DNA of 64,000 bases, from positions 682,001-746,000 of the forward strand of contig NZ_CP121648.1 in assembly GCF_029714205.1 (NCBI RefSeq), given 5' to 3'. How positions within the stretch are numbered: the stretch's first letter is position 1; each line of letters opens with the position of its first letter. Made by a program: the position numbers and the translations under genes. Positions 8,201 to 63,895 of the stretch are shown piece by piece. Source of the DNA: Methylobacterium sp. CB376. GTDB lineage: Bacteria; Pseudomonadota; Alphaproteobacteria; Rhizobiales; Beijerinckiaceae. A model generated the notes under the pieces. That model had not been told where the DNA came from. It searched no databases and saw only the letters and a list, made by a program, of their open reading frames with translations.

Positions 8201-8285
8201 GGATCCTTGGCCGAGGGATCCTTGGCCCGGGGATCCTTGGCCCAGGGATCCTTGACCAAAGGATCCTTGGCCAAAGGATCCGTGC
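8201..8285. repeat. 15-bp tandem repeat, about 5.6 copies
   Basis: Units GGATCCTTGGCC followed by three variable bases start at 8201, 8216, 8231, 8246 and 8261, with a partial unit at 8276. The repeat sits in the 437-bp gap between the secreted-protein gene and the mucR-type gene (8038-8474). On the minus strand it would read as DPWAK-like pentapeptides, but no gene is believed there. Confidence 0.85.
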
Positions 8286-8361
8286 CGCCCGCTCGCCCGC
8301 CAGGCACACCAGCGCCTCCGGCCTCCCCAAGGTCATGTCCTCTCCGGGCGGCGCTTCCTTC

Positions 8362-8474
8362 GATCTAATTCGAACGGATTAAATCCTGCGATAGATTATG
8401 ATTTCACAAGAATTCTGATAATTATTGGCACCGAGGTCGATTTTCCTGTCATCCCCGAATGGAGTCGACCGGAA
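8362..8474 (+). promoter_or_regulatory. AT-rich upstream region of the first mucR-type gene
   Basis: A block markedly richer in A and T than its surroundings, with several TA steps (GATTAAAT, GATAGATTATGATTT, TGATAATTATTGG). MucR/Ros proteins are known to bind AT-rich DNA containing T-A steps and often repress their own genes, so this is the likely promoter and autoregulatory site. The exact -35/-10 boxes could not be fixed. Confidence 0.45.
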
Positions 8475-8948
8475 ATGGGTGACCGAATGAGCGAGATCAA
8501 AGCGGAATCGACGGCGCCGGACAGCGGCGCGCTGGCTGGGCTGACCGCCGGCATCGTCACCGCCTACGTGACGGGGAACGCGCTGCGCGCGTCCGACATG
8601 CCCCACCTCGTGCGCAGCGTCTACAGCACCCTGGCGACGCTCGGCGGCCCGGCCAAGCCCGCGGTCGCGGAGGCGCCGGTGCCGCCGATCCCGATCAAGA
8701 AGACCGTGACGCGGGATGCGATCATCTCGCTGGAGGACGGCAAGCCCTACAAGTCGCTGAAGCGCCACCTCACGGCGCGCGGCCTCAGCCCCGAAGAGTA
8801 TCGGCGGAAGTGGAACCTGCCCCCCGACTACCCGATGGTGGCCGAGGTCTACGCCCAGCGCCGCTCGGACCTCGCCCGGGTGCTCGGCCTCGGCCAGATC
8901 CGCAGCCGGAAGGCCGCGGAGCGGCGCGCGGCCGCGGCGGCCGAGTAG
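8475..8948 (+). CDS. Ros/MucR-family transcriptional regulator lacking zinc ligands
   Basis: 157 residues. The N-terminal helical part (LTAGIVTAYVTGNAL) corresponds to the oligomerisation region. The MucR DNA-binding core follows: PPIPIKKTV, ISLEDGKPYKSLKRHL, EEYRRKWNLPPDYPMVAEVY and LARVLGLGQ. In canonical Ros, zinc is held by two Cys/Asp and two His. Here the first Cys position is Ser (ISLED) and the second His position is not His (HLTARG), so it is a zinc-free variant like Ml proteins of Mesorhizobium. An ATG at 8487 is an alternative start. A paralogue lies at 29535-30035. Confidence 0.9.
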   Translation: MGDRMSEIKAESTAPDSGALAGLTAGIVTAYVTGNALRASDMPHLVRSVYSTLATLGGPAKPAVAEAPVPPIPIKKTVTRDAIISLEDGKPYKSLKRHLTARGLSPEEYRRKWNLPPDYPMVAEVYAQRRSDLARVLGLGQIRSRKAAERRAAAAAE

Positions 8949-9040
8949 GCGCGGCGGCGCCCGATCGTCGCCCGGCGGGATCCCGGAGCCGTCAGGGGCG
9001 TTCCCACGCCTCTCCCCGCTCGTGCCGAGGATCTCGTCAG

Positions 9041-9295
9041 GTGTCGCCGTCGCCGCTGCTCCCACTGATCGTCACCGCCGTGTTCGCGGCGGGGCTGTTC
9101 GTCATCACCCGGCTCGAGAAATGGGCCGACCTCGTCGGCGGGATCCTCGGCCTCACCGCGGTGGGGCTGCTCTGCCTGCTGCTGCTGGCCGTCACTCCCC
9201 CGGCGCCCAGCGGCCCGAACCCGGCGCGGGGCCGGCCGGGCGTGCCCGTCAGCATGATGGCGGGGGCCGACCTCGGCTGGCCGGCCCGGCCCTGA
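9041..9295 (+). CDS. small membrane protein, unknown
   Basis: Starting at a GTG, this 84-residue protein has two membrane helices (LLPLIVTAVFAAGLFVI and LGLTAVGLLCLLLLAV) separated by a short charged loop RLEKWADLVGG, and a polar tail. It lies 92 bases after the mucR-type gene on the same strand. No family is recognised. The hydrophobic pattern is convincing but the start is uncertain. Confidence 0.45.
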   Translation: MSPSPLLPLIVTAVFAAGLFVITRLEKWADLVGGILGLTAVGLLCLLLLAVTPPAPSGPNPARGRPGVPVSMMAGADLGWPARP

Positions 9296-9297
9296 CC

Positions 9298-9588
9298 TCA
9301 CGCCGGCTCGGTGCGCCCCGCCGGCCCCGCCGCAGGGGCGGGCGGCTCGCGGACGAGGCGGTGCGCCTCGCGGACGAGGGCGGGCGCCTCGGCGAGCGGC
9401 TCGGGCCGCAGCCGCTCGGCCAGACCGTCGGCGATCCCCGACAGGACGGCGTCCCACGCGCTCCCGAAGCGGCGCAGCGGCGGGCGGGGCGTCAGGAAGG
9501 CGGGAAGCGGGCTGGCCGGGCGGGCCGCCGGGGCGGGCGGCTCGGCGGCGGGCGGAAGAACCGGGGCGGAATGCAATCCGTGTCGCAT
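9298..9588 (-). CDS. hypothetical protein, proline/alanine-rich
   Basis: A 96-residue reading frame from the ATG at 9588. The first half is proline- and alanine-rich; the second contains a helical segment with WDAVLSGIADGLAERL and RLVREP. It ends 2 bases from the convergent small membrane protein gene. There is no recognisable domain, so it could be a chance frame in GC-rich DNA. Confidence 0.35.
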   Translation of the reverse strand: MRHGLHSAPVLPPAAEPPAPAARPASPLPAFLTPRPPLRRFGSAWDAVLSGIADGLAERLRPEPLAEAPALVREAHRLVREPPAPAAGPAGRTEPA

Positions 9589-9801
9589 CGGAGCCTCGCG
9601 CGGCGGCTGTCCCGGGGCCCGACGCCCCGGTGGCTGACCGGGATACTCTCCCGCGCGCCGGGCCGGACGGCCGTGCCGCGGCGCACGCGCCGCGCGGCGC
9701 CCGCGCCGAACCTTCGCCACAGACGCCTCCGAGCATGCGCCCGCCTGGCGGGGCCGGCGCGGGAATCCGCCGCCGGCCCCCGGACGCTCGGAGCATGGTC
9801 G

Positions 9802-10083
9802 ATGACGCACTCCCGCTCGGCGCTCGCCGCCGCCGCCCTCCTGGCCGGCCTGTCCGCCGCCCCGGCCAAGGACGCCCTCGCCAAGGACACCCTCGCCAAG
9901 GACGCCCCGGCCAGGAACGCACCGGCCAAGCCGGCCGGCCGCCCCGAACCCGCCGGCGAGGAGAGCTTTCCGGGCGTCGACCCGGCGGTGCTCGCCCAGT
10001 GCCGCGGCGAGGCCGAGGCCAAGCGGCTGCGCGGCGAGGCGCGCCAGCTCTTCATGAAGACCTGCGTCGAGCCGGAGGATTGA
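9802..10083 (+). CDS. secreted PsiF-repeat-like protein
   Basis: 93 residues: signal peptide (LAAAALLAGLSAAPA), then a stretch of pentapeptide repeats AKDAL, AKDTL, AKDAP, ARNAP encoded by 15-bp DNA repeats, then a C-terminal PsiF-like block with CRGEAEAKRLRGEARQLFMKTC. In PsiF-repeat proteins this motif carries the paired cysteines. They are small periplasmic proteins of unknown role, and E. coli psiF is induced by phosphate starvation. The tandem repeat inserted between signal peptide and domain is the odd point. Confidence 0.65.
   Translation: MTHSRSALAAAALLAGLSAAPAKDALAKDTLAKDAPARNAPAKPAGRPEPAGEESFPGVDPAVLAQCRGEAEAKRLRGEARQLFMKTCVEPED
9865..9930 (+). repeat. 15-bp tandem repeat inside the PsiF-like gene
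   Basis: Four 15-bp units of the form GCCAAGGACGCCCTC start at 9865, 9880, 9895 and 9910. The last is diverged and is followed by GCCAAG. They are read in frame as AKDAL-type pentapeptides. Confidence 0.8.
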
Positions 10084-10200
10084 TCCGGGATCCGCTTGAT
10101 CGACGCGGGTCCCGTATCCCAAGCCTGCGCGGCGCCCGAGCGACGCCGACATCCGCTTTGCCGAAATGGGAGATGGCGAAGCAATCAACCGGATGTCATG
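10084..10200. repeat. dispersed intergenic element, copy A
   Basis: The sequence directly after the PsiF-like gene stop closely matches the complement of 62281-62417 and, over part of its length, 29469-29537. Shared blocks are GATCCGCTTGATCGA, CGGGTCCCG, ATCCCAAGCC, CGCGGCGCC, GCCGACATCCGC and GGAGATGGCGAAGCAATC. It carries the inverted arms GACATCCG (10148-10155) and CGGATGTC (10190-10197). Confidence 0.8.
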
Positions 10201-10300
10201 TGAGGGCGCCGCGCCCGACCGGCCACCGCGCCGGGGATACGGTGTCGGGGGTCGCGCGCGGCAGGGGCAGCCCGCGCGATCGTCCGATTTCGGGCCGGGC

Positions 10301-11206
10301 TCAGCCTCCCTGCTCCTGCAGCGCCCGCACGACCAGGGCCGAGGCCGAGGTGCGGTTCTCGACGCCGAGCTTGGCGTAGACCTGCTCCAGGTGCTTGGTG
10401 ACCGTGCGGGGGCTCAGGGACAGAATCTCGCCGATGTCGCGGCTCGCCTTGCCGCGGGAGACCCAGAGCAGCACCTCGGCCTCGCGCTGGGTCAGGCCGA
10501 GGGCCCGGCGCAGGCGCTCGATCTCGCCGCCCCCGTCGAGGGCGAGCCGCAGCAGGATCTCGTCGCCCCCGACCTGGCCGATGCGGCTCAGCTGCAGGCG
10601 CCGCCCGTCCGGGGTGGCGAGCGCCACGGGCCCGGGCGCCGCGGCCCGCAGCCAGGCCCGGGCGGCCGGCGGCAGCGCCGGGTCGCCCGCCGCGGAGGAT
10701 TCCGCGAGGTCGCGCAGGAGCCGCGCCGCCTGGGGCGTGCACCAGCGCACCGAACCCGCCCCGTCGACCGCGAAGAGGTAGCGCCCGGCGCTGTCGAGGG
10801 CGAGCCGCGCGCTCTGCGCCGCCCGCGCATTGGCGAGGTGGACGCGGATGCGCGCCAGGATCTCGGTCGCCGAGATCGGCTTGGCGACGTAGTCGACGCC
10901 GCCCGCCTCCAGCCCCCGCACGATGTGCTCGGTCTCCGACAGGCCGGTCATGAAGATCACCGGCACGTGGGCCAGGGCGGCGTTGGCCTTGAGGCGGCGG
11001 CAGGTCTCGAACCCGTCGAGGCCCGGCATCACCGCGTCGAGCAGGATGATGTCGGGGGTGATCTCCTGCACCAGGGTCAGGGCCGCCTCCCCCGAGACCG
11101 CGACCAGCACGGTGGCGCCCGTCGCCTCGATGGCGGAGGTGAGGAAGCTCAGGGTCTCGGGCGAGTCGTCGACGACGAGGATGACGTCGCGGCCGGGCTC
11201 AGGCAT
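10301..11206 (-). CDS. LuxR/FixJ-type response regulator with PAS-like linker
   Basis: 301 residues. An N-terminal receiver domain has VVDDS, phospho-acceptor D in IILLDAVMPG, T in FMTGL and K in VAKP. A middle region (about 135-225, WCTPQAARLLRDL) looks like a degenerate PAS. A C-terminal LuxR-type helix-turn-helix reads LTQREAEVLLWVSRGKASRDIG...VTKHLEQVYAKLGV. Its start overlaps the end of the kinase gene by 8 bases, so the two are co-translated. It is the likely output partner of that kinase and may control the divergent amide/urea operon. Confidence 0.88.
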   Translation of the reverse strand: MPEPGRDVILVVDDSPETLSFLTSAIEATGATVLVAVSGEAALTLVQEITPDIILLDAVMPGLDGFETCRRLKANAALAHVPVIFMTGLSETEHIVRGLEAGGVDYVAKPISATEILARIRVHLANARAAQSARLALDSAGRYLFAVDGAGSVRWCTPQAARLLRDLAESSAAGDPALPPAARAWLRAAAPGPVALATPDGRRLQLSRIGQVGGDEILLRLALDGGGEIERLRRALGLTQREAEVLLWVSRGKASRDIGEILSLSPRTVTKHLEQVYAKLGVENRTSASALVVRALQEQGG

Positions 11207-14200
11207 CGCCGCTCATCCCCTCCAGCACCGCCATGTAGCGGGGCAGGTCGTAGGCCTGGACGAGGCCCCGCAGCTCCGCCACGAAGGGCGCGGGCGTCTC
11301 GGCCTCGATCTCGGCGAGCTTCGCCTCGATGCCCCGGACATGGCCGATGCGCCCGAGCCGGATCAGCTCGGCCACCTGCTCGGGCGTGGCGCGCCGGGGG
11401 CCGGTCCGCACGGGGGGCGCCTCGGCGGTGATCCAGTCGAGGCCGAGCAGGGCCTGGATCCGGGAGAGGAAGTCGCGCAGGTCGAAGGGCTTGGCGATGA
11501 TCGCGTCGTGCGGCGCGTCCTCGCCCCGCACCGGGCTGATCTCGTGGACGTTGGCCGACATCATGGCGATGCGGGCGGGGCCGTGACCCTCCGCGCGCAG
11601 GCGCCGGGCGAGCTCCCAGCCGTTCATGCCCGGCATGGCGATGTCGAGGAGGAAGAGGTCCGGCCGGCAGCCCGCCGCGAGGTCGAGGCAGGACGGCCCG
11701 TCCGCGGCCGAGAGCAGGGTGAAGCCGAGGGGCGTCAGGATCTCGCGCATCAGGTCGCGGTGCGCGGGATCGTCGTCCACGACGAAGATGGTGCGGCGGC
11801 GCCCCGCGTAGCCCCGCACCGGCGCCTCGGCGGGGGCCGCGCGGCCGCTCTCCGCGAGCGAGGACAGCATCAGGCGCAGCCGGAAGGTGCTGCCGCGGCC
11901 GAGCGCGCTCGCCACCGTGATCTCGCCGCCCATCACCTGCGCCAGGAGATGGGCGATGGTGAGCCCGAGGCCGGTGCCGGGCGTGCTGGTCGCCGCCGGC
12001 AGCGTGCCGCGCACGAAGGGCTCGAAGATGCGCGGCAGGTCGGCCTCCGGGATGCCGGAGCCGGTGTCGGTCACGGCGAATTCGGCGATCTGGTTGCGGT
12101 AGGTCAGGTCGAGGCCGACATGGCCCCGGGCCGTGAACTTGATGGCGTTCGAGATCAGGTTGAGCAGGATCTGGCGCAGGCGCTTCTCGTCGGTGGCGAC
12201 GAGGGCGGGCAGGATCGCCGGCCGGGTGAAGCGGAACTCGAGCCCCGCCGCCTCCGCCTGCGGCCGGCACATGTCGACGATCTGGTCGAGGAAGTCGGGC
12301 AGGCGCACCGCGTTGCGGTGGAGCTGGAGCCGGCCGGCCTCCATGCGCGAGATGTCGAGCAGGCCGTCGATCAGGCCCGACAGGTGCTCGGCGCTGCGCC
12401 GGATCACCCGGATGCCCGATTGCCGCTGGGGCGGGATCGCCGGGTCGTTCTCCAGGAGCTGCGCGTAGCCGAGCACGGCGTTGAGGGGCGTGCGCAGCTC
12501 GTGGCTGATGCCCACCACGTAGCGGCTCTTGGCGAGGTTGGCGGCCTCCGCCGCCTCCTTGGCCTTCTGGAGCTTGGCGTCGGTGATCTTGTGGGCGGCG
12601 ATCTCGGCCCGGTGCAGGGCGGTCTGGCGGGCGGTCTCCTCCTGGGCGACGCGGCGGCTCTCCTGCGCCAGCACGAAGAGCCACGCCACCACGCCGAAGA
12701 TCACCGCCATCACGAAGAACACCGCCTCCAGCGCCTGGGCGAGGACGGCGCCGTGCGCGGGGGCGCGGTGCGCCGCCTCCGCGTAGACGACTCCGAGGAT
12801 CAGCCCGGCGGCGGCGCAGAGCGCCAGCATGATGCCGGCGTAGCGCCCGAGCCGGGACTCGACCACCGCGGCGACGCGGGGCGAGAGCCGCGCCGCGACG
12901 TGGCTCACCTGGGCGGAGAGCCGGGCGTGCGGCTTGCACAGGTCGCCGCAGCGCACGTCGAGGGAGCAGCACAGCGAGCAGATCGGCACCGCGTAGGCCG
13001 GGCAATAGGCCATGTCCTCGGGCTCGAAGCTGTGCTCGCAGACGCCGCAGGTGATCTCGCCGCGCCGCTGCCAGTGCCGCCGCGGCCGGCGCGCGAAGTA
13101 GTAGCGGCCGTCCGTCGCCCAGGCGATGAGCGGCGCCGCCGCGAAGGCGGTGCCGAGGGCGATGAAGGCCGCGAAGGCCTGCGGCCCCGCCCCGAGCAGC
13201 CCCGCATAGGCCAGGAAGGCGACGAGGCAGGCGAGCGCCATCGCCCCGGTGCCGACCGGGTTCACGTCGTAGAGGTGGGCGCGCTTGAACTCGATGCCGG
13301 GCGGCGAGAGGCCGAGCGGCTTGTTGACCGCGAGGTCGGCCATCAGGGCCCCCATCCAGGCCGCCGCCACCAGGGCGTAGAGCCCGAGCGTGCGCTCCAG
13401 CGTCTTGTAGATGCCGAGCTCCATCAGCAGGAGCGCGATCGCGACGTTGAAGACCAGCCACACCACCCGGCCCGGATGGCTGTGGGTGAGCCGCGAGAAG
13501 AAGTTCGACCACGCGATCGAGCCCGCATAGGCGTTGGTCACGTTGATCTTGAGCTGCGAGATCACCACGAACAGGCCGGTGACCAGGATCGCGCCGCCGG
13601 CCGGCAGGCCGTACCCGAAGGCCGCGGCGTACATCTGGGTCGGCTCGCTCGCCCGCTCGGCCGGCACGCCCTGGCCGAGCGCCAGCACCGCCAGGAAGGA
13701 GCCGAGCAGGATCTTGAGCATGCCCGGCACGACCCAGCCGGCCCCCGCCCCCAGCACCGCCGCCCACCAGCGCAGCTCCCGGTTCGGCTGCGGCGGCGGC
13801 ACGAAGCGCAGGAAGTCGACCTGCTCGCCGACCTGGGCGAGGAGCGAGAACAGGATCCCGCAGGCGGCGCCGAAGAGCAGCGGGTCGAAGCCCTCGCCCC
13901 GCGCCCCCGCGAGGCCCGCATGCGCCATCCAGGCCTCGACGGGGCGGTCCGCCGCGACCGCGATGAAGGCGAGCGGCAGCAGGTTCAGCAGGAGCCAGAC
14001 CGGCTGCGTGACGAGCTGGAACCGGCTGATCAGCGCGATGCCGTAGGTGACGAGGGGGATCACCGCGAGCGCGCTCACCAGGTAGCCGACCGGCAGCGGC
14101 AGGCCGAGGCAGAGTTCCAGCGCCAGCGCCATGATGGCGGCCTCGATGGCGAAGAACAGGTAGGTGAAGCTCGCGTAGATCAGCGAGGTCAGGGTCGAGC

Positions 14201-14540
14201 CGATATAGCCGAAGCCCGCCCCGCGGGTGAGAAGGTCGACGTCGAGCCCGTGGCGGGCCGCGGTGGCGCCCACCGGCACGCCCGCGAGGAAGATCACGAG
14301 ACCGACCGCCAGGATGGCCGCCATCGTGTTGGTGAAGCCGTAGGCCAGGATCAGCGTGCCGCCGATCGCCTCCAGCGCCAGGAAGGCGACCGAGCCGAGC
14401 GCCGTCTGGGCGACGCGCAGGACCGACCAGCGCCGGGCGCGCTTGGCGGTGAAGCGCAGCGCGAAATCCTCGAGCGTCTCGTTCGCGACCCACCGGTTGT
14501 AATCGCGCCGGACCGGGATGATGCGCTGTCGTCCCTGCAT
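11199..14540 (-). CDS. NCS1-type permease / histidine kinase / receiver fusion sensor
   Basis: A 1113-residue protein from the ATG at 14540. Residues about 40-475 are a many-helix permease of the nucleobase:cation symporter (NCS1) type. Residues 498-535 hold eight cysteines (498, 501, 513, 521, 524, 525, 531, 535) in a probable metal-binding module. Two further membrane helices follow (about 565-585, 605-625), then a kinase with phospho-acceptor His680 in ISHELRTPLNAVLGY, an ATPase domain (LLNLISNAIKFT, GSGIPEAD, GTGLGL), and a receiver domain with LLDIAMPGM. It presumably senses or transports a small nitrogen compound and signals to the adjoining regulator. Divergent from urtA, with a 267-bp shared promoter region. 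Confidence 0.9.
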   Translation of the reverse strand: MQGRQRIIPVRRDYNRWVANETLEDFALRFTAKRARRWSVLRVAQTALGSVAFLALEAIGGTLILAYGFTNTMAAILAVGLVIFLAGVPVGATAARHGLDVDLLTRGAGFGYIGSTLTSLIYASFTYLFFAIEAAIMALALELCLGLPLPVGYLVSALAVIPLVTYGIALISRFQLVTQPVWLLLNLLPLAFIAVAADRPVEAWMAHAGLAGARGEGFDPLLFGAACGILFSLLAQVGEQVDFLRFVPPPQPNRELRWWAAVLGAGAGWVVPGMLKILLGSFLAVLALGQGVPAERASEPTQMYAAAFGYGLPAGGAILVTGLFVVISQLKINVTNAYAGSIAWSNFFSRLTHSHPGRVVWLVFNVAIALLLMELGIYKTLERTLGLYALVAAAWMGALMADLAVNKPLGLSPPGIEFKRAHLYDVNPVGTGAMALACLVAFLAYAGLLGAGPQAFAAFIALGTAFAAAPLIAWATDGRYYFARRPRRHWQRRGEITCGVCEHSFEPEDMAYCPAYAVPICSLCCSLDVRCGDLCKPHARLSAQVSHVAARLSPRVAAVVESRLGRYAGIMLALCAAAGLILGVVYAEAAHRAPAHGAVLAQALEAVFFVMAVIFGVVAWLFVLAQESRRVAQEETARQTALHRAEIAAHKITDAKLQKAKEAAEAANLAKSRYVVGISHELRTPLNAVLGYAQLLENDPAIPPQRQSGIRVIRRSAEHLSGLIDGLLDISRMEAGRLQLHRNAVRLPDFLDQIVDMCRPQAEAAGLEFRFTRPAILPALVATDEKRLRQILLNLISNAIKFTARGHVGLDLTYRNQIAEFAVTDTGSGIPEADLPRIFEPFVRGTLPAATSTPGTGLGLTIAHLLAQVMGGEITVASALGRGSTFRLRLMLSSLAESGRAAPAEAPVRGYAGRRRTIFVVDDDPAHRDLMREILTPLGFTLLSAADGPSCLDLAAGCRPDLFLLDIAMPGMNGWELARRLRAEGHGPARIAMMSANVHEISPVRGEDAPHDAIIAKPFDLRDFLSRIQALLGLDWITAEAPPVRTGPRRATPEQVAELIRLGRIGHVRGIEAKLAEIEAETPAPFVAELRGLVQAYDLPRYMAVLEGMSGDA

Positions 14541-14683
14541 GTGCCTCCAGGCCGCGCTTGCTGCAGCGCAATCTACGACACGCTTCCGCAAATGCACGCC
14601 TGCGGCGCGCCGCTCCCCACCCCGATCGGGACTTGGCGTCCGCGCGCGACGGGGGCAGCGCGCAATCCTGCGCAGGGTCATGG

Positions 14684-14718: not shown

Positions 14719-14807
14719 TCGCACAATGCCGCCTAGCCTCCGCTCCGGTCGCGGCGCGGACCGCCCGGGACGGGCCGGCCCCGCGAGCCTTCAGGAGAGG
14801 ACGAGCG

Positions 14808-17090: not shown

Positions 17091-17104
17091 GGAGTCCCGA
17101 CGAC

Positions 17105-18259: not shown

Positions 18260-18270
18260 GAGATCGCAGG

Positions 18271-39255: not shown

Positions 39256-39729
39256 GTGAGCGCCCGGGCCGACCTCGCGCGGGCCTTCGCGGGCTGGCGG
39301 CGCGCCGCCCAAGATCCCGCCTCCCAAGATCCCGCCTCCCAAGATCCCGCCTCCCAAGATCCCGCTTCCCCGGACCCCGCCTCCTGCCCGGTGCGGGACG
39401 TGCTCGACCGCGTCGGCGACAAGTGGACGAGCCTGATCCTGATCGCGCTCGCCGAAGGGCCGCGCCGCTTCGGCGCGCTCGGCCGCGCGGTGCCGGACAT
39501 CTCCAAGCGCATGCTGACCCAGACCCTGCGCCACCTGGAGCGGGACGGTCTCGCGACGCGGACCGTCTTCCCGACGAAGCCGCCGAGCGTCGAGTACCGG
39601 CTCACGCCGCTGGGGGAATCGCTGCTGGAGCCGCTCGCCGGGCTGGTCGCCTGGGCCGAGGAGCGCCACGCGGCGATCCGCGCCGCCCGCGCGCGCTTCG
39701 ACGCGGGCGACGATGCGGGGGCGGGCTGA
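39256..39729 (+). CDS. HxlR-family redox-responsive regulator with N-terminal pentapeptide repeats
   Basis: 157 residues from a GTG. The HxlR winged helix runs from [22 protein letters not shown] through [28 protein letters not shown] to YRLTPLG. A single cysteine just before the first helix (ASCPVRD) is the conserved redox switch of QorR/HypR relatives. The N-terminus is extended by QDPAS repeats encoded by 15-bp DNA units, absent from typical HxlR proteins. It likely represses the divergent qorB until quinone or disulfide stress. Confidence 0.85.
39310..39384 (+). repeat. 15-bp tandem repeat inside the HxlR gene, five units
   Basis: Units CAAGATCCCGCCTCC start at 39310, 39325 and 39340, with variants at 39355 and 39370. 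They are translated as [25 protein letters not shown], so copy-number change keeps the frame. Confidence 0.85.
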
Positions 39730-43221: not shown

Positions 43222-43482
43222 ATGACGCGCGTCATCGCCACCGCCGCCGCCCTCGCCCTCCTCGCCACCGCCGCGTCGGCCCAGACCCGGGCGACCAACC
43301 CGCAGAACGAGCCGCCCGGCCAGAAGATGCACGAATCCGGCAGCGCCAAGGGCACGACCGGCGCCTCCGGCTACACGCCCGGCCACGAGATGAAGACGAC
43401 CGGCAGCGTCAAGGGCACCTCCGGCGCCTCCGGCTACGCGCCCGGCCACGACCCGGCCTCCTCGCGCGGCACCGGCCGCTGA
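43222..43482 (+). CDS. small secreted protein with duplicated GASGY repeat
   Basis: 86 residues: signal peptide to ASAQ, then a hydrophilic mature part in which a block of the form KGT[TS]GASGY[TA]PGH appears twice. No cysteines. I recognise the style (periplasmic low-complexity proteins of Hyphomicrobiales) but no function. GGAGATGGA precedes the ATG. It converges with the sigma factor gene 19 bases away. Confidence 0.7.
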   Translation: MTRVIATAAALALLATAASAQTRATNPQNEPPGQKMHESGSAKGTTGASGYTPGHEMKTTGSVKGTSGASGYAPGHDPASSRGTGR

Positions 43483-44580: not shown

Positions 44581-44997
44581 ATGCGTCTTGGACGATTCTT
44601 CCTCGCACTGATGCTGATCTGCGGGCTCGCCCCCGCCCTGCGGCCCGCCCCGGCCGCGGCCGAGACGGCGGCGGCGAGCGCGGCCGCACCCACCGCCTGG
44701 ACCGGCTGGCACGGCGGCTGGCGCCACCACGGCTGGCACGGCCGCCACGTCGGCTGGCACCGGCACGGCTGGGGCCGGCCCTACGCCTACCGCACCGTCG
44801 GCTATTATCCGGCGCGCTACGGCTACCGGCACCATTACTGGCGGCACGGCCACTACGGCTGGCACCACCGGCCCTATTGGCGCCATTACGGCTGGCGCCA
44901 CCGTCACTGGCGGCATTACGGCTGGCATCACCGGCCGCACTGGCGCCACTACGGCTGGCATCGCCACGGCTGGCGCCACGCCCGCTTCGGCTACTGA
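44581..44997 (+). CDS. secreted His/Trp/Tyr/Gly-rich protein
   Basis: 138 residues: signal peptide (FFLALMLICGLAPAL...AAA), then a mature chain built of repeated HYGW, WHRH, WRHYGWH units, over a quarter of it histidine. Such chains can bind divalent metals or form a disordered matrix; neither is proven. An EcfG promoter directly upstream and the adjoining sigma factor mark it as a general stress response product. Confidence 0.8.
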   Translation: MRLGRFFLALMLICGLAPALRPAPAAAETAAASAAAPTAWTGWHGGWRHHGWHGRHVGWHRHGWGRPYAYRTVGYYPARYGYRHHYWRHGHYGWHHRPYWRHYGWRHRHWRHYGWHHRPHWRHYGWHRHGWRHARFGY

Positions 44998-49933: not shown

Positions 49934-50004
49934 GCTGGTCCGGGATCGGCGGGACACCGTATATAGGGGCGCTCCTCCCGGCGTCCGTGCCGCGCCCCCG
50001 CCCC

Positions 50005-50092
50005 CTGCCCTGCCGACCTGCCCTGCCGACCTGCCCTGCCGACCTGCCCTGCCGACCTGCCCTGCCGACCTGCCCTGCCGACCTGCCCTGCC
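50005..50092 (+). repeat. 13-bp tandem repeat ending at the methyltransferase start codon
   Basis: Six perfect copies of CTGCCCTGCCGAC and a 10-base partial copy run up to the base before the ATG at 50093. No Shine-Dalgarno sequence is left between repeat and start. The unit is not a multiple of 3. Confidence 0.9.
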
Positions 50093-52683: not shown

Positions 52684-53487
52684 ATGGCGGGCGACGGCAA
52701 GACGGCACTCCTCGCGGACGCGCAGACGAGCGCGGGCCAGTCGAACGGTGGCCAGTCGAACGGCGGCAAGGCGCGCGACATCCCGGCGCACGTCGCCATC
52801 ATCATGGACGGCAACGGGCGCTGGGCCGCCCGCCGCGGCCTGCCGCGCGCGGAGGGCCACCGCCGCGGCGTCGAGGCGGTGCGGCGGGCCGTGCGCGCCG
52901 CGCTCGAATTCGGCATCGGCTACCTCACGGTCTACAGCTTCTCGTCCGAGAACTGGCGCCGGCCCGCGGCGGAGGTCGCCGACCTGATGGGGCTGCTCAA
53001 GCTGTTCGTGCGGCGCGACCTCGCCGACCTGCACGCGAACGGCGTGCGGGTGCGGATCATCGGCGCCCGCGAGGGCCTGCCCGCGGACATCGCCGCCCTG
53101 CTGCGCGAGGCCGAGGAGCGCACCGCCGCCAATACCCGGCTCACCCTGGTGGTCGCCTTCAACTATGGCGGGCGCCAGGAGATCGTCCGCGCGGTGCAGT
53201 CCCTTGCGCGGGCCGTGCAGGAGGGGCGGCTCGCCCCCGAGGCGATCGACCTCGACGCCGTGGCGGGCGCCCTCGACACGCGGGGGATCCCCGACCCCGA
53301 CCTGGTGATCCGCACCTCGGGCGAGCAGCGGGTGTCGAACTTCCTCACGTGGCAGACCGCCTACTCGGAATTCGTGTTCCTGCCGGACCTGTGGCCGGAT
53401 TTCGACCGCGCCGCCTTCGCGGCGGCGATCGACGCCTATCAGGGCCGCGAGCGCCGCTTCGGCGGGCTCTCCGCGCAGGCGGGCTGA
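52684..53487 (+). CDS. uppS: undecaprenyl diphosphate synthase
   Basis: 267 residues. The cis-prenyltransferase motif [13 protein letters not shown] carries the catalytic Asp; [26 protein letters not shown] and [18 protein letters not shown] follow. It makes the C55 lipid carrier for peptidoglycan and polysaccharide. The N-terminus is extended by about 30 residues including two GQSNG repeats from 15-bp DNA repeats. Its stop overlaps the cdsA start (TGATG). Confidence 0.94.
52735..52764 (+). repeat. two 15-bp direct repeats at the 5' end of uppS
   Basis: GGCCAGTCGAACGGT at 52735 and GGCCAGTCGAACGGC at 52750, read in frame as GQSNG twice. Confidence 0.75.
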
Positions 53488-56625: not shown

Positions 56626-57786
56626 TTGACGCGCACCGTCACCGTGCTCGGGGCGACCGGCTCCATCGGGCGCTCCACCGCCGACCTCCTCGACCAGCAC
56701 CGCGACCGCTTCCGGGTCGCCGCGGTGGCGGGGGGCAGGGACGCCGCCTCCCTGGCCCGCGTCGCCCGCGCGCTCGGGGCCGAGTTCGCGGCCCTCGCCG
56801 ATCCGGAGGGCGGGCCGGCCCTGCGGGACGCCCTCGGGGGCAGCGGCATCGCCTGCGGGGCCGGGCCGGAGGCGGTGGTCGAGGCGGCGAGCCGCGAGGC
56901 CGACCTCGTCGTGGCGGCGGTGAGCGGCGCGGCGGGGCTCGGCCCGACCCACGCGGCGATCCGGCTCGGGCGCACCGTCGCCCTCGCCAACAAGGAGAGC
57001 CTCGTCTGCGCGGGCGACGCCTTCATGCGCGACGCGCGGCGCTACGGGGCCCGCATCCTGCCGATGGATTCCGAGCACAACGCCCTCGCCCAGGCGATCG
57101 GCGAGGGCAAGGTCGAGGACATCACCCGGATGACCATCACGGCCTCGGGCGGGCCCTTCCGCACGGCCCCGCGCGAGACCATCGCGGCGGCGAGCGCCGC
57201 CCAGGCCGCCGCCCACCCGACCTGGTCGATGGGCATGAAGATCAACATCGATTCCGCCACCCTGATGAACAAGGGCCTCGAACTCGTCGAGGCGCACCAC
57301 CTCTTCGCCATCGAGGCCGAGCGGCTCGACGTCGTGGTCCACCCCCAATCCATCGTCCACGGCCTGGTGACGTGGCGGGACGGGGCGGTGACGGCCGGGC
57401 TCGCGATGCCGGACATGCGGGTGCCGATCGCCCATTGCCTCGGCATCGGCGAGCGCCTGACCGTCGCGCGGGGGCGCCCCGTCGACCTCGCCGCCACCGG
57501 CAGCCTCACCTTCGAGCGACCGGACGAGGAGCGCTTCCCCTGCCTGCGCATCGCGAAGGCCGCGCTCGCCACGGGCGGCGCGCAGCCGACGGTGATGAAC
57601 GCCGCCAACGAGATCGCGGTCGCGGCGTTCATCGCCGGGCGCATCGGCTTCTACGACATCGCCGCCCTCGTCGAGCGGGCCTGCGCGGCCTTCGCGGCCC
57701 GCTTCCCCGCCGCCCCGGCCGACGTCGGGGAGGCGCTCGCCATGGACGACGAGGTGCGGCGCTGGAGCGCGCAGGCCCTCGGCTGA
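56626..57786 (+). CDS. dxr: 1-deoxy-D-xylulose 5-phosphate reductoisomerase
   Basis: 386 residues, TTG start. NADPH motif [11 protein letters not shown], metal/substrate segments [51 protein letters not shown] and [13 protein letters not shown] are all present. It makes MEP, the committed step of non-mevalonate isoprenoid synthesis, feeding uppS. No better start is available without truncating the Rossmann motif. Confidence 0.94.
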
Positions 57787-58072
57787 CCGGCACCGCGCCA
57801 TCCGGCCGAGAATCCCGCTCCCGCATCGTGCCCGGCGCCGAAATCGCCGCCGAAGTCGCCGCCGAAGCGGCCGCGCCTCAGGCGCACGGTGGCGTGCCGC
57901 CCGAGCGCGCCGTTAACCGCGGCCGGAGCCGGGCGGGGGCGGCGCATCCGCGCCCTGTCCTCGGCGCACGGGAAGCGGTATGACAGGCGGATGCGCGCCC
58001 GGGCCCTCGGCCCCGGACGCCCGGGGCGGAAGCCGGTCGCGGCCGGACCGCGCCCCGGGTCTTGATTTTGCC

Positions 58073-58114
58073 GCACGTCCCGACGGACCGGCCCCCGGCT
58101 TGGTCGGGACGTGC
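58073..58114. promoter_or_regulatory. 12-bp perfect inverted repeat before rseP
   Basis: GCACGTCCCGAC (58073-58084) and its exact complement (58103-58114) with an 18-base loop, 35 bases before the rseP ATG, in the 363-bp gap 57787-58149. The gap also holds short GCCGCCGAA repeats near 57840-57880. The inner GTCCCGAC/GTCGGGAC recurs before bamA. Operator or transcript hairpin. Confidence 0.5.
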
Positions 58115-58149
58115 ACTGAGAGGAACCGGCGGATGCCGGGCGGGCCGAC

Positions 58150-59310
58150 ATGACCTTTCTCAACGCCCTGACGGAGACGACCGGCAGCCTCCTCTACATC
58201 GTGCCGTCGTTCCTGTTCGTGCTGACCGTGGTGGTGTTCATCCACGAACTCGGCCACTTCCTGGTCGGCCGCTGGTGCGGCGTCGGGGTGACGAGCTTCT
58301 CGATCGGCTTCGGGCCGGAGATCGCCGGCTTCACCGACCGGCGGGGCACGCGCTGGAAGCTCTCGGCGATCCCGCTCGGCGGCTACGTCAAGTTCGTGGG
58401 CGACCAGAACGGCGCCAGCGTGCCCGACCCCGACAGCCTCGCGCGGATGAGCGCGGACGAGCGCGCGATCAGCTTCCACACCCAGCCGGTCTGGAAGCGC
58501 ATCGCCATCGTGGCGGCCGGTCCGGCGGCGAATTTCCTGCTCGCCGTGCTGGTCTTCGCCGGCTCGATCTACGCCCTCGGGCGCATGGAGGTGACGCCGC
58601 TCGTCTCCGGGATCCAGCCCGGCAGCGCCGCCGCGCGGGCCGGCTTCCAGGTCGGCGACGTCGTCCAGGCGATCAACGGCCGGCCGGTGACGCACTTCGC
58701 CGACATGCAGCGGATCGTCTCGGGCAGCGGCGGCGAGACGCTCCGCGTCACGGTCGAGCGCGGGGGCGTGCGCACCACCCTGGAGGCCGTGCCCGACACC
58801 GTGCAGGAGAAGACGCCCTTCGGCACCCACCGCCTCGGGCGGCTCGGGATCCAGGGCCCGCGCGACGCCGCCGACGTCAAGCTCGCCCGCTACGGCCTGG
58901 TGGATTCCCTCAGGATCGGCGTCTCCGAGACCTACTACGTGGTCGAGCGCACCTTCGACTACATGGGCAAGCTGATCACCGGGCGCGAATCGGCCGACCA
59001 GCTCTCCGGCCCGATGGGCATCGCCCGGGTCTCGGGCCAGGCCGCCAAGGCCGGGGGCCTCTCGGCGGTGATCGGCCTCATCGCGGTCCTGTCGGTCTCG
59101 ATCGGGCTCATCAACCTGTTCCCGGTCCCGCTTCTCGATGGCGGCCACCTGATGTTCTACGCCGTCGAGGTCCTGCGCGGCCGCCCCCTGAGCGAGCGTG
59201 CCCAGGAAATCGGCTTCCGCATCGGCCTCGCCCTCGTGCTCATGCTCATGCTGTTCGCCACCTGGAACGATATCGTGCAGATCGGCACCTCCTGGACCCG
59301 CGGAACCTGA
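58150..59310 (+). CDS. rseP: RseP-family site-2 intramembrane zinc metalloprotease
   Basis: 386 residues. Active site HELGH at residues 32-36 in the first helix (FIHELGHFLVGR), a single PDZ domain (about 125-205, VVQAINGRPVTHF), and the second metal motif NLFPVPLLDGGHLMFY near the C-terminus. It cleaves anti-sigma factors and signal-peptide remnants in the membrane. The canonical position between dxr and bamA is kept. Confidence 0.93.
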   Translation: MTFLNALTETTGSLLYIVPSFLFVLTVVVFIHELGHFLVGRWCGVGVTSFSIGFGPEIAGFTDRRGTRWKLSAIPLGGYVKFVGDQNGASVPDPDSLARMSADERAISFHTQPVWKRIAIVAAGPAANFLLAVLVFAGSIYALGRMEVTPLVSGIQPGSAAARAGFQVGDVVQAINGRPVTHFADMQRIVSGSGGETLRVTVERGGVRTTLEAVPDTVQEKTPFGTHRLGRLGIQGPRDAADVKLARYGLVDSLRIGVSETYYVVERTFDYMGKLITGRESADQLSGPMGIARVSGQAAKAGGLSAVIGLIAVLSVSIGLINLFPVPLLDGGHLMFYAVEVLRGRPLSERAQEIGFRIGLALVLMLMLFATWNDIVQIGTSWTRGT

Positions 59311-59368
59311 GGCCCGCGCCGGGAGAAGCTGGCAATTCGAGCGATCGCGTTCAGCCTTTCCGCACAGG

Positions 59369-59390
59369 TCCCGACATAAATTCGTCGGGA
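59369..59390. promoter_or_regulatory. TCCCGAC-N8-GTCGGGA inverted repeat between rseP and bamA
   Basis: Seven-base perfect arms around ATAAATTC, in the 354-bp gap 59311-59664. The arms are the same as the core of the larger dyad before rseP. No other gene is seen in this gap, which presumably holds a bamA promoter. Confidence 0.45.
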
Positions 59391-59664
59391 TCATGGGCGC
59401 TCATCTGCGCGAATCCCGATCTGGGCCGGCGCGCGACGGCGGTGCTTCAGGGCTTGCTGACTCTGCCGCGCGAAAGCCGGCGGGGATCCCGTGACAGGAA
59501 GGCCACGTCCCCCCAAAATCCCGGTCCGATGCGAGCTTGGCGTTTGCTTCGCGGGGGATTCTCAGTAGAAGCGGGCGAGGACCAGACGGTCCCCGCCCTC
59601 CTCGCAGAGGGTCGGCGACCCGCGGGTGCGAACCCGGACCGATAAAAAAGAGACGGGCCATTTG

Positions 59665-62154
59665 ATGATGTCGATGACAGGGAAGCGCGCGCGCGTGTCG
59701 GCCACTGGCGCCATCATGATGGCAGCCGGACTGGCCGCGGGTGGCGCGCAGGCGCAGCAGGTCGTCGTGCAGGGCAACAGCCGCGTCGACGCCGACACGG
59801 TGCGGTCCTACGTGACCGGCGTGTCGCCCGAGGAGGCCCGGCGCAATCTGATCGCGAGCGGGATGTTCTCGGACGTCCGGGTTTCCCAGAGCGGCGGCCG
59901 CACCGTGGTGACGGTGCGGGAGAACAACACGATCAACCGCGTCGTCTTCGAGGGCAACAAGAAGGTCGAGAAGAGCACTCTCGAGAGCATCGTCGAGGCG
60001 AAGTCCCGCGCGGGCTTCAACCCCGCCGTGGTCCAGTCCGACGTCGAGCGCATCCGCGAGGTCTACCGCCGCTCCGGCCGCGGTCTCGCCAAGGTCTCGT
60101 ACCGGACGGTGGACCTGCCGAACGGCTCGATCGACGTGATCTACACTATCGACGAGGGCGACAAGACCGGCATCAGGGAGATCCACTTCGTCGGCAATCA
60201 GGCCTATTCCGAGGGTCGCCTCAAGGACCTGATGACCTCGACGGAGATGAACCTCCTCAGCTTCGTCAAGACCTCGGACGTCTACGATCCCGACCGGATC
60301 GCCAACGACCTCGACCTCGTGCGCCGCTACTACCTGAAGAACGGCTACGCCGATTTCCGGGTCGTCTCCGCGGATGCGCGCTTCGACGAGGGCGCGGGCG
60401 GCTGGATCATCACCGTCACGGTGGAGGAGGGTCGGCAGTACCGGGTCGGCGCGGTGGCGATCGACTCGCGGCTCGGCGGCGTCGACGGCGCGACCCTGCG
60501 CGACGAGATCCGCACCGAGGTCGGCGACGTCTACAACGCCGAGGACGTGGAGCGCACCCTGACCGGCGTCACCACCGAGGTGGCGCGCCGCGGCTATCCC
60601 TTCGCGCAGGTCCGCCCGACCGGCGAGCGCGACCGGGCCTCCGGCACCGTGGCCCTCGGCTTCGTGGTCGAGGACGGCCCGCGCGTCTACGTCGAGCGCA
60701 TCAACGTCCGCGGCAACACCCGCACCCGCGACTACGTGGTCCGGCGCGAGCTCGATTTCGGCGAGGGCGACGCCTACAACCGCGTCCTCGTGGACCGGGC
60801 CGAGCGGCGCCTGAACGGGCTGGGCTTCTTCAAGAAGGTCCGCTTCTCGAACGAGCCGGGCTCGTCGCCCGACCGCGTCGTCGTCAACATCGACGTCGAG
60901 GATCAACCCACCGGCTCGTTCTCGGTGGCGGGCGGCTATTCCACGGCCGACGGCGTCATCGGCGAGGTCTCGGTCTCGGAGTCGAACTTCCTCGGCCGCG
61001 GCCAGTACGTGCGCCTCGGCGTCTCCGCCGGCCAGTACACCCGCGGCATCGACTTCTCCTTCACCGAGCCGTACTTCCTCGGCTACCGGCTGGCCGCCGG
61101 CTTCGACGTGTTCAGCAAGTACAGCGACCTGACCCGCTACTCGCGCTACGTGACCGACGTGACCGGCGGCCAGCTGCGCCTCGGCCTGCCGATCACCGAG
61201 GAGTTCGGCATCACGCTGCGCTACTCGCTCTACAACACGACCCTCAAGATCCCGAACACCCTGAAGCGCCCCTACAACGATTGCTCGTTCCCGCTCGCGG
61301 GCTACACGGCGGTCAACGCGCTCGGGCAGGCGCTCTACCCGAACTGCGCCTATGACGGCGAGGCCTCGATCGCCCTCAAGGAATCGGTCGGCGACACGCT
61401 CACCTCGCTGGCGGGCGTGACCCTGGCCTACTCGACCCTCGACAACCTGCAGCTGCCGCGCAACGGCTTCTACGGCGAGTTGAAGCCCGAATTCGCCGGT
61501 CTCGGCGGCGACTCGAAGTTCTTCCGCGTCACCGGCGAGGCCCGCTACTACAAGGAGCTGTGGGAGGACGTCGTCGGCTTCGTGAAGATCCAGGGCGGCC
61601 ACATCATGCCGACCGAGGGCAACACGCTGCGGATCACCGACCAGTTCTTCCTCGGCCCGTCGCTGGTGCGCGGCTTCGCGCCGAACGGCATCGGCCCGCG
61701 CGACATCGGCTCGACCGATTCCCGCTCGAACGCGCTCGGCGGCACCACCTATATCGGCGGCACCGTCGAGGTGCAGTTCCCGATCTGGGGCATCCCGAAG
61801 GATATCGGCCTGAAGGGCGCCATCTTCGCGGATGCGGGCACGCTGTTCGGCTACAAGTCCAAGCGCACCTTCGACGTCAACGGCGACGGCATCATCAACG
61901 GCTTCAGCCCGGTCGGCGGCTGCAACTTCAACACGTTCACGATCGGCGTAGAGCCCGAATGCGTGAACGTGCGCGACCAGGCGACTCTGCGCTCCTCGGT
62001 CGGTGCCTCGATCCTCTGGAACTCGCCGCTGGGCCCGATCCGCTTCGACTACGCCTACGCCCTCACCCGGGACGAGGGCGTGCTGACGGCGGGCGGCAAG
62101 GTCGGCAAGGACCAGCTTCAGGCCTTCCGCTTCTCGGGCGGCTCGCGCTTCTGA
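59665..62154 (+). CDS. bamA: outer membrane assembly factor BamA
   Basis: 829 residues. Signal peptide to AQAQQ, then five POTRA domains (VVQGNSRVDADTVRSYV, NRVVFEGNKKVEKSTLES, EIHFVGNQAYSEGRLKDLM, VGAVAID..., VERINVRGNTRTRDYVVRREL), and a C-terminal 16-strand barrel with FFLGPSLVRGFAPNGIGPRD (the VRGF/Y motif) and final SRF. It folds and inserts outer-membrane proteins. A GTG at 59626 is also in frame, but the ATG at 59665 gives the usual signal peptide. Followed by a strong hairpin, so it ends the operon. Confidence 0.95.
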   Translation: MMSMTGKRARVSATGAIMMAAGLAAGGAQAQQVVVQGNSRVDADTVRSYVTGVSPEEARRNLIASGMFSDVRVSQSGGRTVVTVRENNTINRVVFEGNKKVEKSTLESIVEAKSRAGFNPAVVQSDVERIREVYRRSGRGLAKVSYRTVDLPNGSIDVIYTIDEGDKTGIREIHFVGNQAYSEGRLKDLMTSTEMNLLSFVKTSDVYDPDRIANDLDLVRRYYLKNGYADFRVVSADARFDEGAGGWIITVTVEEGRQYRVGAVAIDSRLGGVDGATLRDEIRTEVGDVYNAEDVERTLTGVTTEVARRGYPFAQVRPTGERDRASGTVALGFVVEDGPRVYVERINVRGNTRTRDYVVRRELDFGEGDAYNRVLVDRAERRLNGLGFFKKVRFSNEPGSSPDRVVVNIDVEDQPTGSFSVAGGYSTADGVIGEVSVSESNFLGRGQYVRLGVSAGQYTRGIDFSFTEPYFLGYRLAAGFDVFSKYSDLTRYSRYVTDVTGGQLRLGLPITEEFGITLRYSLYNTTLKIPNTLKRPYNDCSFPLAGYTAVNALGQALYPNCAYDGEASIALKESVGDTLTSLAGVTLAYSTLDNLQLPRNGFYGELKPEFAGLGGDSKFFRVTGEARYYKELWEDVVGFVKIQGGHIMPTEGNTLRITDQFFLGPSLVRGFAPNGIGPRDIGSTDSRSNALGGTTYIGGTVEVQFPIWGIPKDIGLKGAIFADAGTLFGYKSKRTFDVNGDGIINGFSPVGGCNFNTFTIGVEPECVNVRDQATLRSSVGASILWNSPLGPIRFDYAYALTRDEGVLTAGGKVGKDQLQAFRFSGGSRF

Positions 62155-62214
62155 GCCCTCCCGGACGCGGCAGGGCGCCGCCACGGCGGCGCGCCTCGGC
62201 AGGGATGATCGATG

Positions 62215-62244
62215 CGGCACCCGTTCCCCCCGGAACGGGTGCCG
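62215..62244 (+). terminator. bamA terminator hairpin
   Basis: A perfect 13-bp stem, CGGCACCCGTTCC and its complement, with a CCCC loop, 60 bases after the bamA stop and followed by GTTCCGTTG. The following T-run is weak. Confidence 0.7.
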
Positions 62245-62280
62245 TTCCGTTGAATGCCCCACGCCGCCTCGGACCAGCGG

Positions 62281-62417
62281 TCATCCGACATCCGACGGAT
62301 TGCTTCGCCATCTCCGATTTCGGCCATGCGGATGTCGTCCGCGCTCAGGCGCCGCGCTCAGGCGCCGCGCGGGCTTGGGATCCGGGACCCGCTTCGATCA
62401 AGCGGATCCCGGATCCC
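62281..62417. repeat. dispersed intergenic element, copy B (inverted)
   Basis: Complement of copy A at 10084-10200 with the same order of blocks, plus an internal 13-bp duplication GCGCTCAGGCGCC (62341-62366). Inverted arms GACATCCG (62287-62294) and CGGATGTC (62329-62336). The remaining part of the gap to 62571 shows AGTCC/AAGCC-rich sequence and no gene. Confidence 0.8.
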
Positions 62418-62571
62418 TCCTCATGACCGCTGGTTCCGTTCTCGACGTGTCGCCAAGCCCTTTTTGCGCCAGTCCTTTTTCCACCAAGCCTGTCTCGCCA
62501 CGCCTTCGGCGTGGCGCCGAGAATTCGCGAGGCTCGACGGCCCGCCGCGCCGGCATCCCGGGTCGTCGGGA

Positions 62572-63462
62572 TCACAGGGCCGGGCCGCCTCGCAGCAGGT
62601 GATCCCTGACCGTCACGACGCGCGGCTGGCGAAGCGCGCCCGGGTTCCAGGCCAGGTAGAGGGCGTTGTCCAGCCCCTCGCGGGCGGTCGGCAGCTCGGT
62701 CAGCCGCCCCAGCGCCAGCGCCTCGGCGCAGACGTAGTCCGGCAGCACCGTCCATCCCACGCCCGCCACCGCCATGCCGGTCAGGCGGCGCAGGTCGGGC
62801 GCCGTCGCGACGGCCTGCAGGTCCGGGAGCCCGTCGAAGACCTGCGCGAAGAAGGGCCGGATCAGCGGCAGGCCCTCGTCGTAGGCGATGCACGGCAGGC
62901 CGCGCAGGATGTCGGCCGCGACGATGCGGCCCTTCGCGCGCGCGGCGAGCGCCGGCGCCGCGACCAGCAGCAAGCGCTCGCGGCCCAGTTCGGCGAAGCC
63001 GAGGCCCCTGCCCTCCGGCAGCGAGGCGGTGACGGCCAGATCCGCGTGGCCCTCCCCCAGGGCGGCGTAGATGCGGTCGCGGCCCCCCGTCCCGATGCGC
63101 AGCCGCAGCCCCTGCGCCACCAGCGGCGCCAGCGCCGGCCCGATGCGCGCGGAGAGGTATTCGGCCGGACCGACCAGGTGCACGGTGCCGGAGAGCTGGC
63201 TCGAGCGGGCGCGGGCCGCCGCCATCACCGCGTCGATGCGGTCGAGGGCGGCCGCGACCGAGCGGGCGAGATCGTCGGCCGCCGGCGTCGGGCTCACGCC
63301 GCGCGCCTGCCGGACGAAGAGCGGCCTTCCGAGCTGCCCCTCCAGCGCCGCGACGTGGGCCGAGGCCGCCGGCTGGGTGATGCCGAGTTGCCGCGCCGCG
63401 CGGGTGATCGAGCCGGCGCGGTCGGCGCAGAGGAAGGTGCGCAAGGAGACGAGGTGGCTCAT
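62572..63462 (-). CDS. LysR-family transcriptional regulator
   Basis: 296 residues. The N-terminal helix-turn-helix reads LRTFLCADRAGSITRAARQLGITQPAASAHVAALEGQLGRPLFVR; the C-terminal substrate-binding domain follows (VHLVGPAEYLSARIGPAL...VAVAGVGWTVLPDYVCAEAL). It is divergent from a DJ-1/PfpI-like gene, its probable target. Confidence 0.9.
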   Translation of the reverse strand: MSHLVSLRTFLCADRAGSITRAARQLGITQPAASAHVAALEGQLGRPLFVRQARGVSPTPAADDLARSVAAALDRIDAVMAAARARSSQLSGTVHLVGPAEYLSARIGPALAPLVAQGLRLRIGTGGRDRIYAALGEGHADLAVTASLPEGRGLGFAELGRERLLLVAAPALAARAKGRIVAADILRGLPCIAYDEGLPLIRPFFAQVFDGLPDLQAVATAPDLRRLTGMAVAGVGWTVLPDYVCAEALALGRLTELPTAREGLDNALYLAWNPGALRQPRVVTVRDHLLRGGPAL

Positions 63463-63775
63463 CGCCGGAAGCGGGCATGGGAATGTCCCCGTTCCCTACC
63501 GCGACGGGCGATGCCTGTCCTCTCCCTCGGGCAGGCATGGCCCGGGGGCCGACCCGAGCATGGCGGGGGCCGGTCGCTGGATGGCCCCGCCGCCTCGCCA
63601 GGTGGGCAGCCCGCCACGCGGCAGCGGCCTGCGGGTGACCCCGCGGAGCGGTCATCTCGATAGGCGCGACGAGCGCGACCGGATGGCCGCGAAGCGGTCG
63701 GCGCGACGGGTCGGCGCTGGGGGAGCCATCGGATCTCTGATCGGTCCTCCCACGAGGAGTGATTTCCGCCGCCGA

Positions 63776-63895
63776 GTCCGGCTTGGCAAGGTCCGGCTTG
63801 GCAAGGTCCGGCTTGGCAAGGTCCGGCGCGGCAAGGCCCGGTCCGGCAAGGTCCGGTCCGGCAAGGTCCGGCTTGGCAAGGTCCGGCTTGGCAAG
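63776..63895. repeat. 15-bp tandem repeat, eight units, upstream of the DJ-1-like gene
   Basis: Units GTCCGGCTTGGCAAG start at 63776 and every 15 bases to 63881; units 4-6 have substitutions. It ends 10 bases before the ATG at 63906, so it fills the promoter-proximal leader of that gene. The other part of the 443-bp gap (63463-63775) holds no gene I would support. Confidence 0.88.

Follow-up and report, generated by a model that had tools for sequence, protein, structure and literature searches.

A CCAAG core shared by tandem arrays of different period in and between genes of Methylobacterium sp. CB376

Tandem arrays with a common CCAAG core occur in and between the genes of Methylobacterium sp. 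CB376, and many of them differ in length from their counterparts in another strain of the same species. We followed up four such arrays with 15-bp units in a 64,000-bp segment of its 7.69 Mb genome (positions 682001-746000, in the following called the window), which an earlier sequence-only reading had described as a scattered family of minisatellites translated into pentapeptide repeats. The wider pattern is that of a core motif and not of a pentapeptide family: the same core recurs at other periods, including the frame-breaking periods of 13, 16, 17 and 19 bp, and some of the arrays lie inside a small dispersed element. We consider it probable that the arrays arose in situ by a slippage-type amplification with a preference for CCAAG, combined with a turnover of units and tolerated wherever it does no harm.

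The four period-15 arrays of the window

Analyzing the window with Tandem Repeats Finder (TRF) recovered all four 15-bp arrays, and CCAAG is present in the consensus unit of each of them, on the minus strand in the case of array D. Array A (8197..8281, minus strand; 5.7 copies with 87% matches by TRF) consists of six nearly palindromic 15-bp units of the CCAAGGATCC type, which carry CCAAG on both strands owing to this near-palindromy, and is located about 190 bp upstream of a gene of the ROS/MUCR family (8475-8948). Array B (9858..9930, plus strand; 4.9 copies, 82% matches) contains GCCAAGGACGCCCTC-type units, which are read in frame as AKDxL near the N-terminus of a 93-residue PsiF-repeat protein (PF07769; gene at 9802-10083). 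Array C (39303..39384, plus strand; 5.5 copies, 91% matches) is built from CCAAGATCCCGCCTC units and codes for QDPAS repeats in an HxlR regulator (39256-39729), where it separates the N-terminal segment from the conserved sequence CPVRDVLDR; it is in frame provided that translation starts from the GTG at 39256. Array D (63776..63896, minus strand; 8.1 copies, 91% matches) comprises eight CCAAGCCGGACCTTG units (GTCCGGCTTGGCAAG on the plus strand), and only nine bases separate its end from the ATG at 63906, with which a DJ-1/PfpI gene starts. Single units depart from the consensus, as illustrated by array D with CCAAG in five of its eight units, and the filler sequences beyond CCAAG differ among the four arrays. 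The proposed translation into pentapeptides applies to arrays B and C, which are in frame, but not to arrays A and D, which are intergenic.

We inspected nine loci homologous to that of array C, including two (L226 and L146) with an identical N-terminal sequence, and none of them contains the array. The homologues contain a single short segment (e.g., DPAG, DPSL in two of them) in front of the conserved CPVR(D/N)VLD(R/H). Because the array is absent from these loci, the QDPAS array looks like a local amplification of resident sequence. Regarding array D, 15-bp arrays with similar units (GCCGCGCCGGATCTT) were observed at two loci of other Methylobacterium species (L324 and L329 in genomes G065 and G044); the match to the window is confined to the array, and the flanks are unmatched.

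CCAAG core and period 15 in the genome

To place these arrays in the context of the genome, we used a sample of 60 evenly spaced stretches plus the window, amounting to 61 pieces and 1.25 Mb. The window was included in the strict period-run counts, the intergenic array density and the hairpin comparison, and excluded from the count of intergenic consensuses, the equal-spaced pentamer triples and the TRF period counts for coding and intergenic arrays. Searching the entire genome for CCAAG-N10-CCAAG-N10-CCAAG yielded 57 matches vs. three for the reversed control, a pattern with free spacing gave 215 vs. 25, and the period-16 pattern gave 28 vs. 10. Strict tandem runs in the sample numbered 30 at period 15, compared to five at period 14, six at period 16, ten at period 12, 15 at period 18 and 17 at period 21, with a masked stretch of N accounting for one run at every period. 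According to these counts, 15 is the most frequent tandem period of the sample, which bears out its expected enrichment, and other frame-neutral periods are also raised.

The sample contained 79 intergenic arrays. Outside the window, CCAAG was present in 17 of the 74 intergenic TRF consensuses, compared to 2.4 expected from the array-masked intergenic composition, and together with the spaced matches this indicates that units of different loci have a core in common beyond what their composition would produce, as the sequence-only reading had supposed. Three of these 17 arrays (L049, L061, L076) are borne by a miniature inverted-repeat transposable element (MITE, see below), and a fourth one (L083, 35 bp) looks like part of another dispersed repeat. 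The core also emerged without any prior choice when we recorded all pentamers that form equally spaced triples in the 60 stretches: CCAAG ranked first among 65 pentamers of similar frequency, with 13 triples at periods 12, 15, 18 and 21 (mean of the 65 pentamers, 1.26) and seven at periods 10, 11, 13, 14, 16, 17, 19 and 20 (mean, 0.66), whereas the reversed pentamer formed one frame-neutral and no frame-breaking triple. The fillers between the cores are largely homogeneous inside one array and different between arrays.

Reading frame of coding and intergenic arrays

The periods depend on the genic context of the arrays. In the TRF set with periods of 10 to 24 bp, the period was divisible by three in 79 of 87 coding arrays vs. 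30 of 67 intergenic ones; because coding status was derived from a simple purpose-written gene finder, which placed array C outside of the HxlR gene, some circularity is possible in this contrast. We also compiled a catalogue of CCAAG arrays with 50 rows, which includes 20 stretches chosen for holding arrays and in which rows 2292503 and 2292516 (L059) represent one array in two phases. All 18 coding rows have periods that are multiples of three, whereas the intergenic arrays show periods of 12, 13, 15 to 19 and 30 bp, with 20 of 32 not being multiples of three. Frame-breaking CCAAG periods between genes were 13, 16, 17 and 19; period 14 was also seen in the genome at large. This pattern is as expected of an amplification at the DNA level that is filtered by the removal of frameshifts, in line with the original suggestion of a frame-neutral amplification tolerated in flexible protein segments.

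The core might alternatively originate at the protein level, with CCAAG resulting from the Lys codon AAG following codons that end with CC (Ala GCC, Pro CCC), so that the arrays would represent low-complexity repeats rich in A, K, P and D, and the intergenic ones would be misannotated or decayed genes. This would fit with the orientation of the catalogued coding arrays (15 sense vs. three antisense) and with the matches of a loosely spaced CCAAG pattern in 278 of 297 genomes across the order, many of which, among the matches listed, look like Lys-rich coding sequence by eye. We did not use the order-wide pattern as evidence because many of the matches listed are unequally spaced and coding-like. 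A protein-level origin is at odds with the intergenic arrays of frame-breaking period and with the presence of arrays in MITE loops. Moreover, the sense arrays use more than one frame (xCC-AAG and xxC-CAA-G), giving CAA for Gln besides AAG for Lys, while the third phase occurs in a single array only, with two CCAAG per unit. Taking these observations together, we regard an origin from codon usage as improbable.

Variation between strains of one species

A comparison of copy numbers between isolates, as proposed in the sequence-only reading, was possible with Methylobacterium sp. WSM2598 (G050), which belongs to the same species. Orthologous flanks allowed an alignment of 56 array loci; 28 of them differ in length between the two strains, 17 of the 56 by whole units. 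The aligned stretches contained 1370 mismatches in 324,777 bp and 55 insertions or deletions of 8-120 bp, some of which are not tandem units. Array A consists of six units here and at least nine in WSM2598, and array B is shorter here by two units (30 bp); array C is unchanged in length, and array D is equal in length with its unit variants reordered. These loci show head-to-tail units of about 10-100 bp and unit numbers differing between isolates of the same species, as do minisatellites and variable-number tandem repeat (VNTR) loci. In one direction of the comparison, the CCAAG arrays were more variable than the others (9/13 vs. 8/43, p 0.001). Too few clean births from one to two copies were found among the strain insertions and deletions. 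Both the unit-step alleles and the local origin are compatible with slippage during replication or with unequal exchange. A separate difference between the strains was observed at L117 (about 14186-14292, G050), where WSM2598 has about five copies of a 20-bp unit from a dispersed repeat and this genome about one.

A variable copy number would also be compatible with arrays that are under selection as binding sites or regulatory sequences (in promoters or leaders, or for nucleoid proteins) and tune the neighbouring genes. Arrays A and D are located upstream of genes, and array D extends at its end into an AAGGAG sequence (63893-63898) that precedes the DJ-1/PfpI ATG by 7 nt. Because the array end forms this sequence so close to the start codon, unit changes in array D could touch the ribosome-binding region. 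However, the intergenic arrays show no clear orientation to their flanking genes (counting by eye, non-MITE arrays between co-oriented genes have CTTGG in the sense direction in eight cases and CCAAG in five), their periods and fillers vary freely, and arrays are also found inside genes. It is therefore quite improbable that the CCAAG arrays are regulatory arrays.

A 122-bp MITE hosting some of the arrays

Ten of the 50 catalogued arrays are located inside a dispersed element, two of which (6010776 and 6664528) match it only partly. The single-unit form of this MITE is 122 bp long, contains three hairpins and no transposase gene, and ends with the terminal inverted repeats TACCAACGG and CCGTTGGTA, which show some variation between copies. 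It is flanked by a 3-bp target duplication. Among 21 copies, of which two are orthologous, this duplication is exact in 15, vs. 23% for mismatched pairings, and TNA is present at the left side of 18 and at the right side of 19. A preference for TNA is a property of the IS1031 type. The loop contains one to five CCAAG units in the copies seen, and at one MITE locus the unit number is one here and two in WSM2598, with flanks that are identical at 297/300 and 300/300 positions.

Copies were identified at positions 1501-1622 of L182, in L163, L164, L165, L166, L167, L061 and L076, and in the window, where a diverged copy with two CCAAG (62408..62571, plus strand) was matched by model R1 with 40.4 bits and an E-value of 1.5e-6. 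Including this copy, the sample of the own genome contained ten in 1.24 Mb. The model matched in 23 of 111 genomes of the genus, and six of the genus genomes, including the own one, have at least 32 scored candidates each. Many copies of genome G004 share one score, which suggests a recent spread of the MITE in this genome. The three-hairpin structure is a model based on the paired arms and on two-sided changes in 5 of 44 pairs, and not on statistics, because the covariation term was unfavourable (+1.12, seven sequences). Rfam gave no matches in the window at gathering scores and none in three of the six loci L162-L167 at E 0.5. Among openly licensed papers, we found no description of these Methylobacterium arrays or of the MITE, which is apparently undescribed.

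Within the genus, 109 of 111 genomes contain CCAAG triples at period 15, with many among the matches listed looking coding-like by eye, and triples at the frame-breaking period 16 occur in 44 of 111. Leaving out the own species, 42 of 109 genomes contain period-16 triples (106 matches), compared to 12 genomes (18 matches) with the reversed control. For members of the class that do not belong to the genus, the corresponding figures are 15 of 287 genomes with CCAAG and six with the control. The contrast between the genus and the class is therefore one of degree, because CCAAG exceeds the control outside the genus as well.

All CCAAG arrays might be descendants or fragments of this MITE, having inherited the core from its CCAAG-bearing loop. 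Such a descent would agree with the MITE flanks of ten catalogued arrays, which are only partial in two cases and sometimes accompany fillers that have diverged strongly, and with the higher frequency of period-16 arrays in genomes with a MITE, which amounts to 14 of 21 vs. 28 of 88 without a detected MITE (own species left out; cross-counts transcribed by hand). The latter number also means that 28 of 88 genomes have such arrays in spite of lacking a detectable MITE. Furthermore, MITE flanks did not rise above background in 40 of the 50 catalogue rows, all four window arrays among them (lowest p 0.067), and the site of array C is a single short segment in the homologues. We consider descent of all arrays from the MITE to be unlikely, and the common origin supposed for the four arrays is not supported in the sense of descent: their fillers differ beyond CCAAG, they have no MITE flanks, and array C is missing from its homologous loci. 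For most arrays, the CCAAG preference is not explained by MITE descent, nor is it explained by codon usage alone.

Shared mobile flanks were also considered for the first 30 array locus rows, many of which overlap one array, and were rejected: the shared pieces belong to a different dispersed repeat, as judged by position for the window locus. This second family of dispersed repeats, represented by 12-mers like GATCCGGGATCC and GCGCCTGAGCGA, is present in the window at about 10083-10210. In the sample of 1.25 Mb it occurs in up to 39 intergenic bins, and it is common to the flanks of several array loci.

Proposed mechanism

We propose that the arrays arise locally through a slippage-type mechanism that duplicates resident segments of 12-20 bp in tandem, that segments containing CCAAG/CTTGG would be favoured in this process, and that the arrays would afterwards gain and lose whole units at a high rate. 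In genes, selection would purge frame-breaking periods, leaving mostly multiples of three, with 15 as the commonest period and a translation into pentapeptides, while periods of 13-19 would survive between genes. Some arrays would grow within the loop of the dispersed MITE. We infer slippage as the mechanism, as well as the direction of the changes and their neutrality.

Two natural causes of a preference for CCAAG were rejected. Hairpin-stabilised slippage found no support, since doubled units were no more stable than their shuffles (mean z of -0.12 for 17 CCAAG arrays and -0.08 for 55 others; Mann-Whitney p 1.0 for the comparison of both groups). A priming effect or replication polarity was equally not apparent, with 12 of 22 non-MITE intergenic arrays in lagging orientation (p 0.83), or 20 of 32 (p 0.22) after adding the MITE arrays; this test placed the origin at dnaA near base 1, after identifying DnaA by eye, and assumed the terminus to lie halfway along the contig. 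GC skew was of no help, and one position list of the test was transcribed by hand.

With no excess of hairpins and no replication polarity, the failure of these two causes weighs against the in-place amplification proposed here, as do several further observations. CCAAG is absent from 57 of the 74 sampled intergenic arrays, and commoner GC-rich pentamers exceed it in the absolute number of triples. Without the three MITE arrays, its frame-breaking triples drop from seven to four, which equals the count for GGCAA. The higher variability of CCAAG arrays was not significant in the opposite direction of the strain comparison (8/14 vs. 15/47, p 0.12), and in a second species (G011, 380 kb) CCAAG occurred in none of eight intergenic and two of 14 coding arrays.

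As a tentative and rather doubtful extension, CCAAG/CTTGG may act in Methylobacterium as a sequence-specific hotspot for tandem duplications and represent the bacterial equivalent of a minisatellite core. A putative replication, nicking or repair enzyme of the genus would act or pause at the motif and thereby cause the 12-20 bp duplications from which arrays develop, whether in genes, between genes or in the MITE loop. Explanations involving Vsr (CTWGG) or a chi-like sequence were considered on general grounds only.

Other repeats of the window

The two-copy 15-bp repeat in uppS (52735..52767, plus strand; GQSNG), which had been listed alongside the four arrays, does not contain CCAAG and stands outside of the set; it is one of several weak period-15 repeats with two to three copies detected by TRF in the window. 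TRF also reported a perfect 13-bp array without CCAAG (CCTGCCCTGCCGA, 6.8 copies) at 50004-50092, as well as tandem repeats of longer units (33 and 63 bp) at 44849-44979 and 43313-43449.

Significance and comparison with known systems

The birth of minisatellites is poorly understood, and bacterial arrays are usually treated locus by locus. The presence of unrelated arrays with different periods, one short core and single-unit differences between sister strains makes the cause of array birth directly testable. In addition, the arrays offer strain-typing markers for this species and allow protein N-termini and leaders to change rapidly, and they led to a MITE that is apparently undescribed and seems to have spread recently.

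In human DNA, different minisatellites have a common short core (Jeffreys); the arrays described here are bacterial, have another core, and no recombination factor has been identified for them. The mycobacterial major polymorphic tandem repeats (MPTR) consist of a conserved 10-bp part and a 5-bp spacer and belong to one gene family (PPE-MPTR). They resemble the arrays described here in having a period of 15, a conserved part next to a spacer that varies, and a translation into pentapeptides; here, however, only 5 bp are conserved, and the arrays occur in PsiF-like and HxlR genes and in intergenic DNA.

A MITE of the same genus, MiniMdi3 of M. extorquens, is about 400 bp long and related to ISMdi3, with four and eight MITEs tabulated in two genomes, and the part of the source available to us does not mention a tandem array (PMC2680597); its comparison with the 122-bp MITE is by description and not by sequence. 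BrickBuilt of Porphyromonas gingivalis is a MITE which contains a minisatellite with a 23-nt unit (PMC4596501). Both BrickBuilt and the element reported here are dispersed intergenic inverted-repeat elements with an internal tandem repeat, and the latter is set apart, again by description rather than by sequence, as a 122-bp three-hairpin element with TNA duplications and one to five CCAAG units. The closest likeness in behaviour is to bacterial VNTR or minisatellite loci as used for multiple-locus VNTR analysis (MLVA typing), which share tandem units of 10-25 bp and whole-unit differences between strains of the same species; unlike those, many unlinked loci of different period are present here at high density with one 5-bp core in common.

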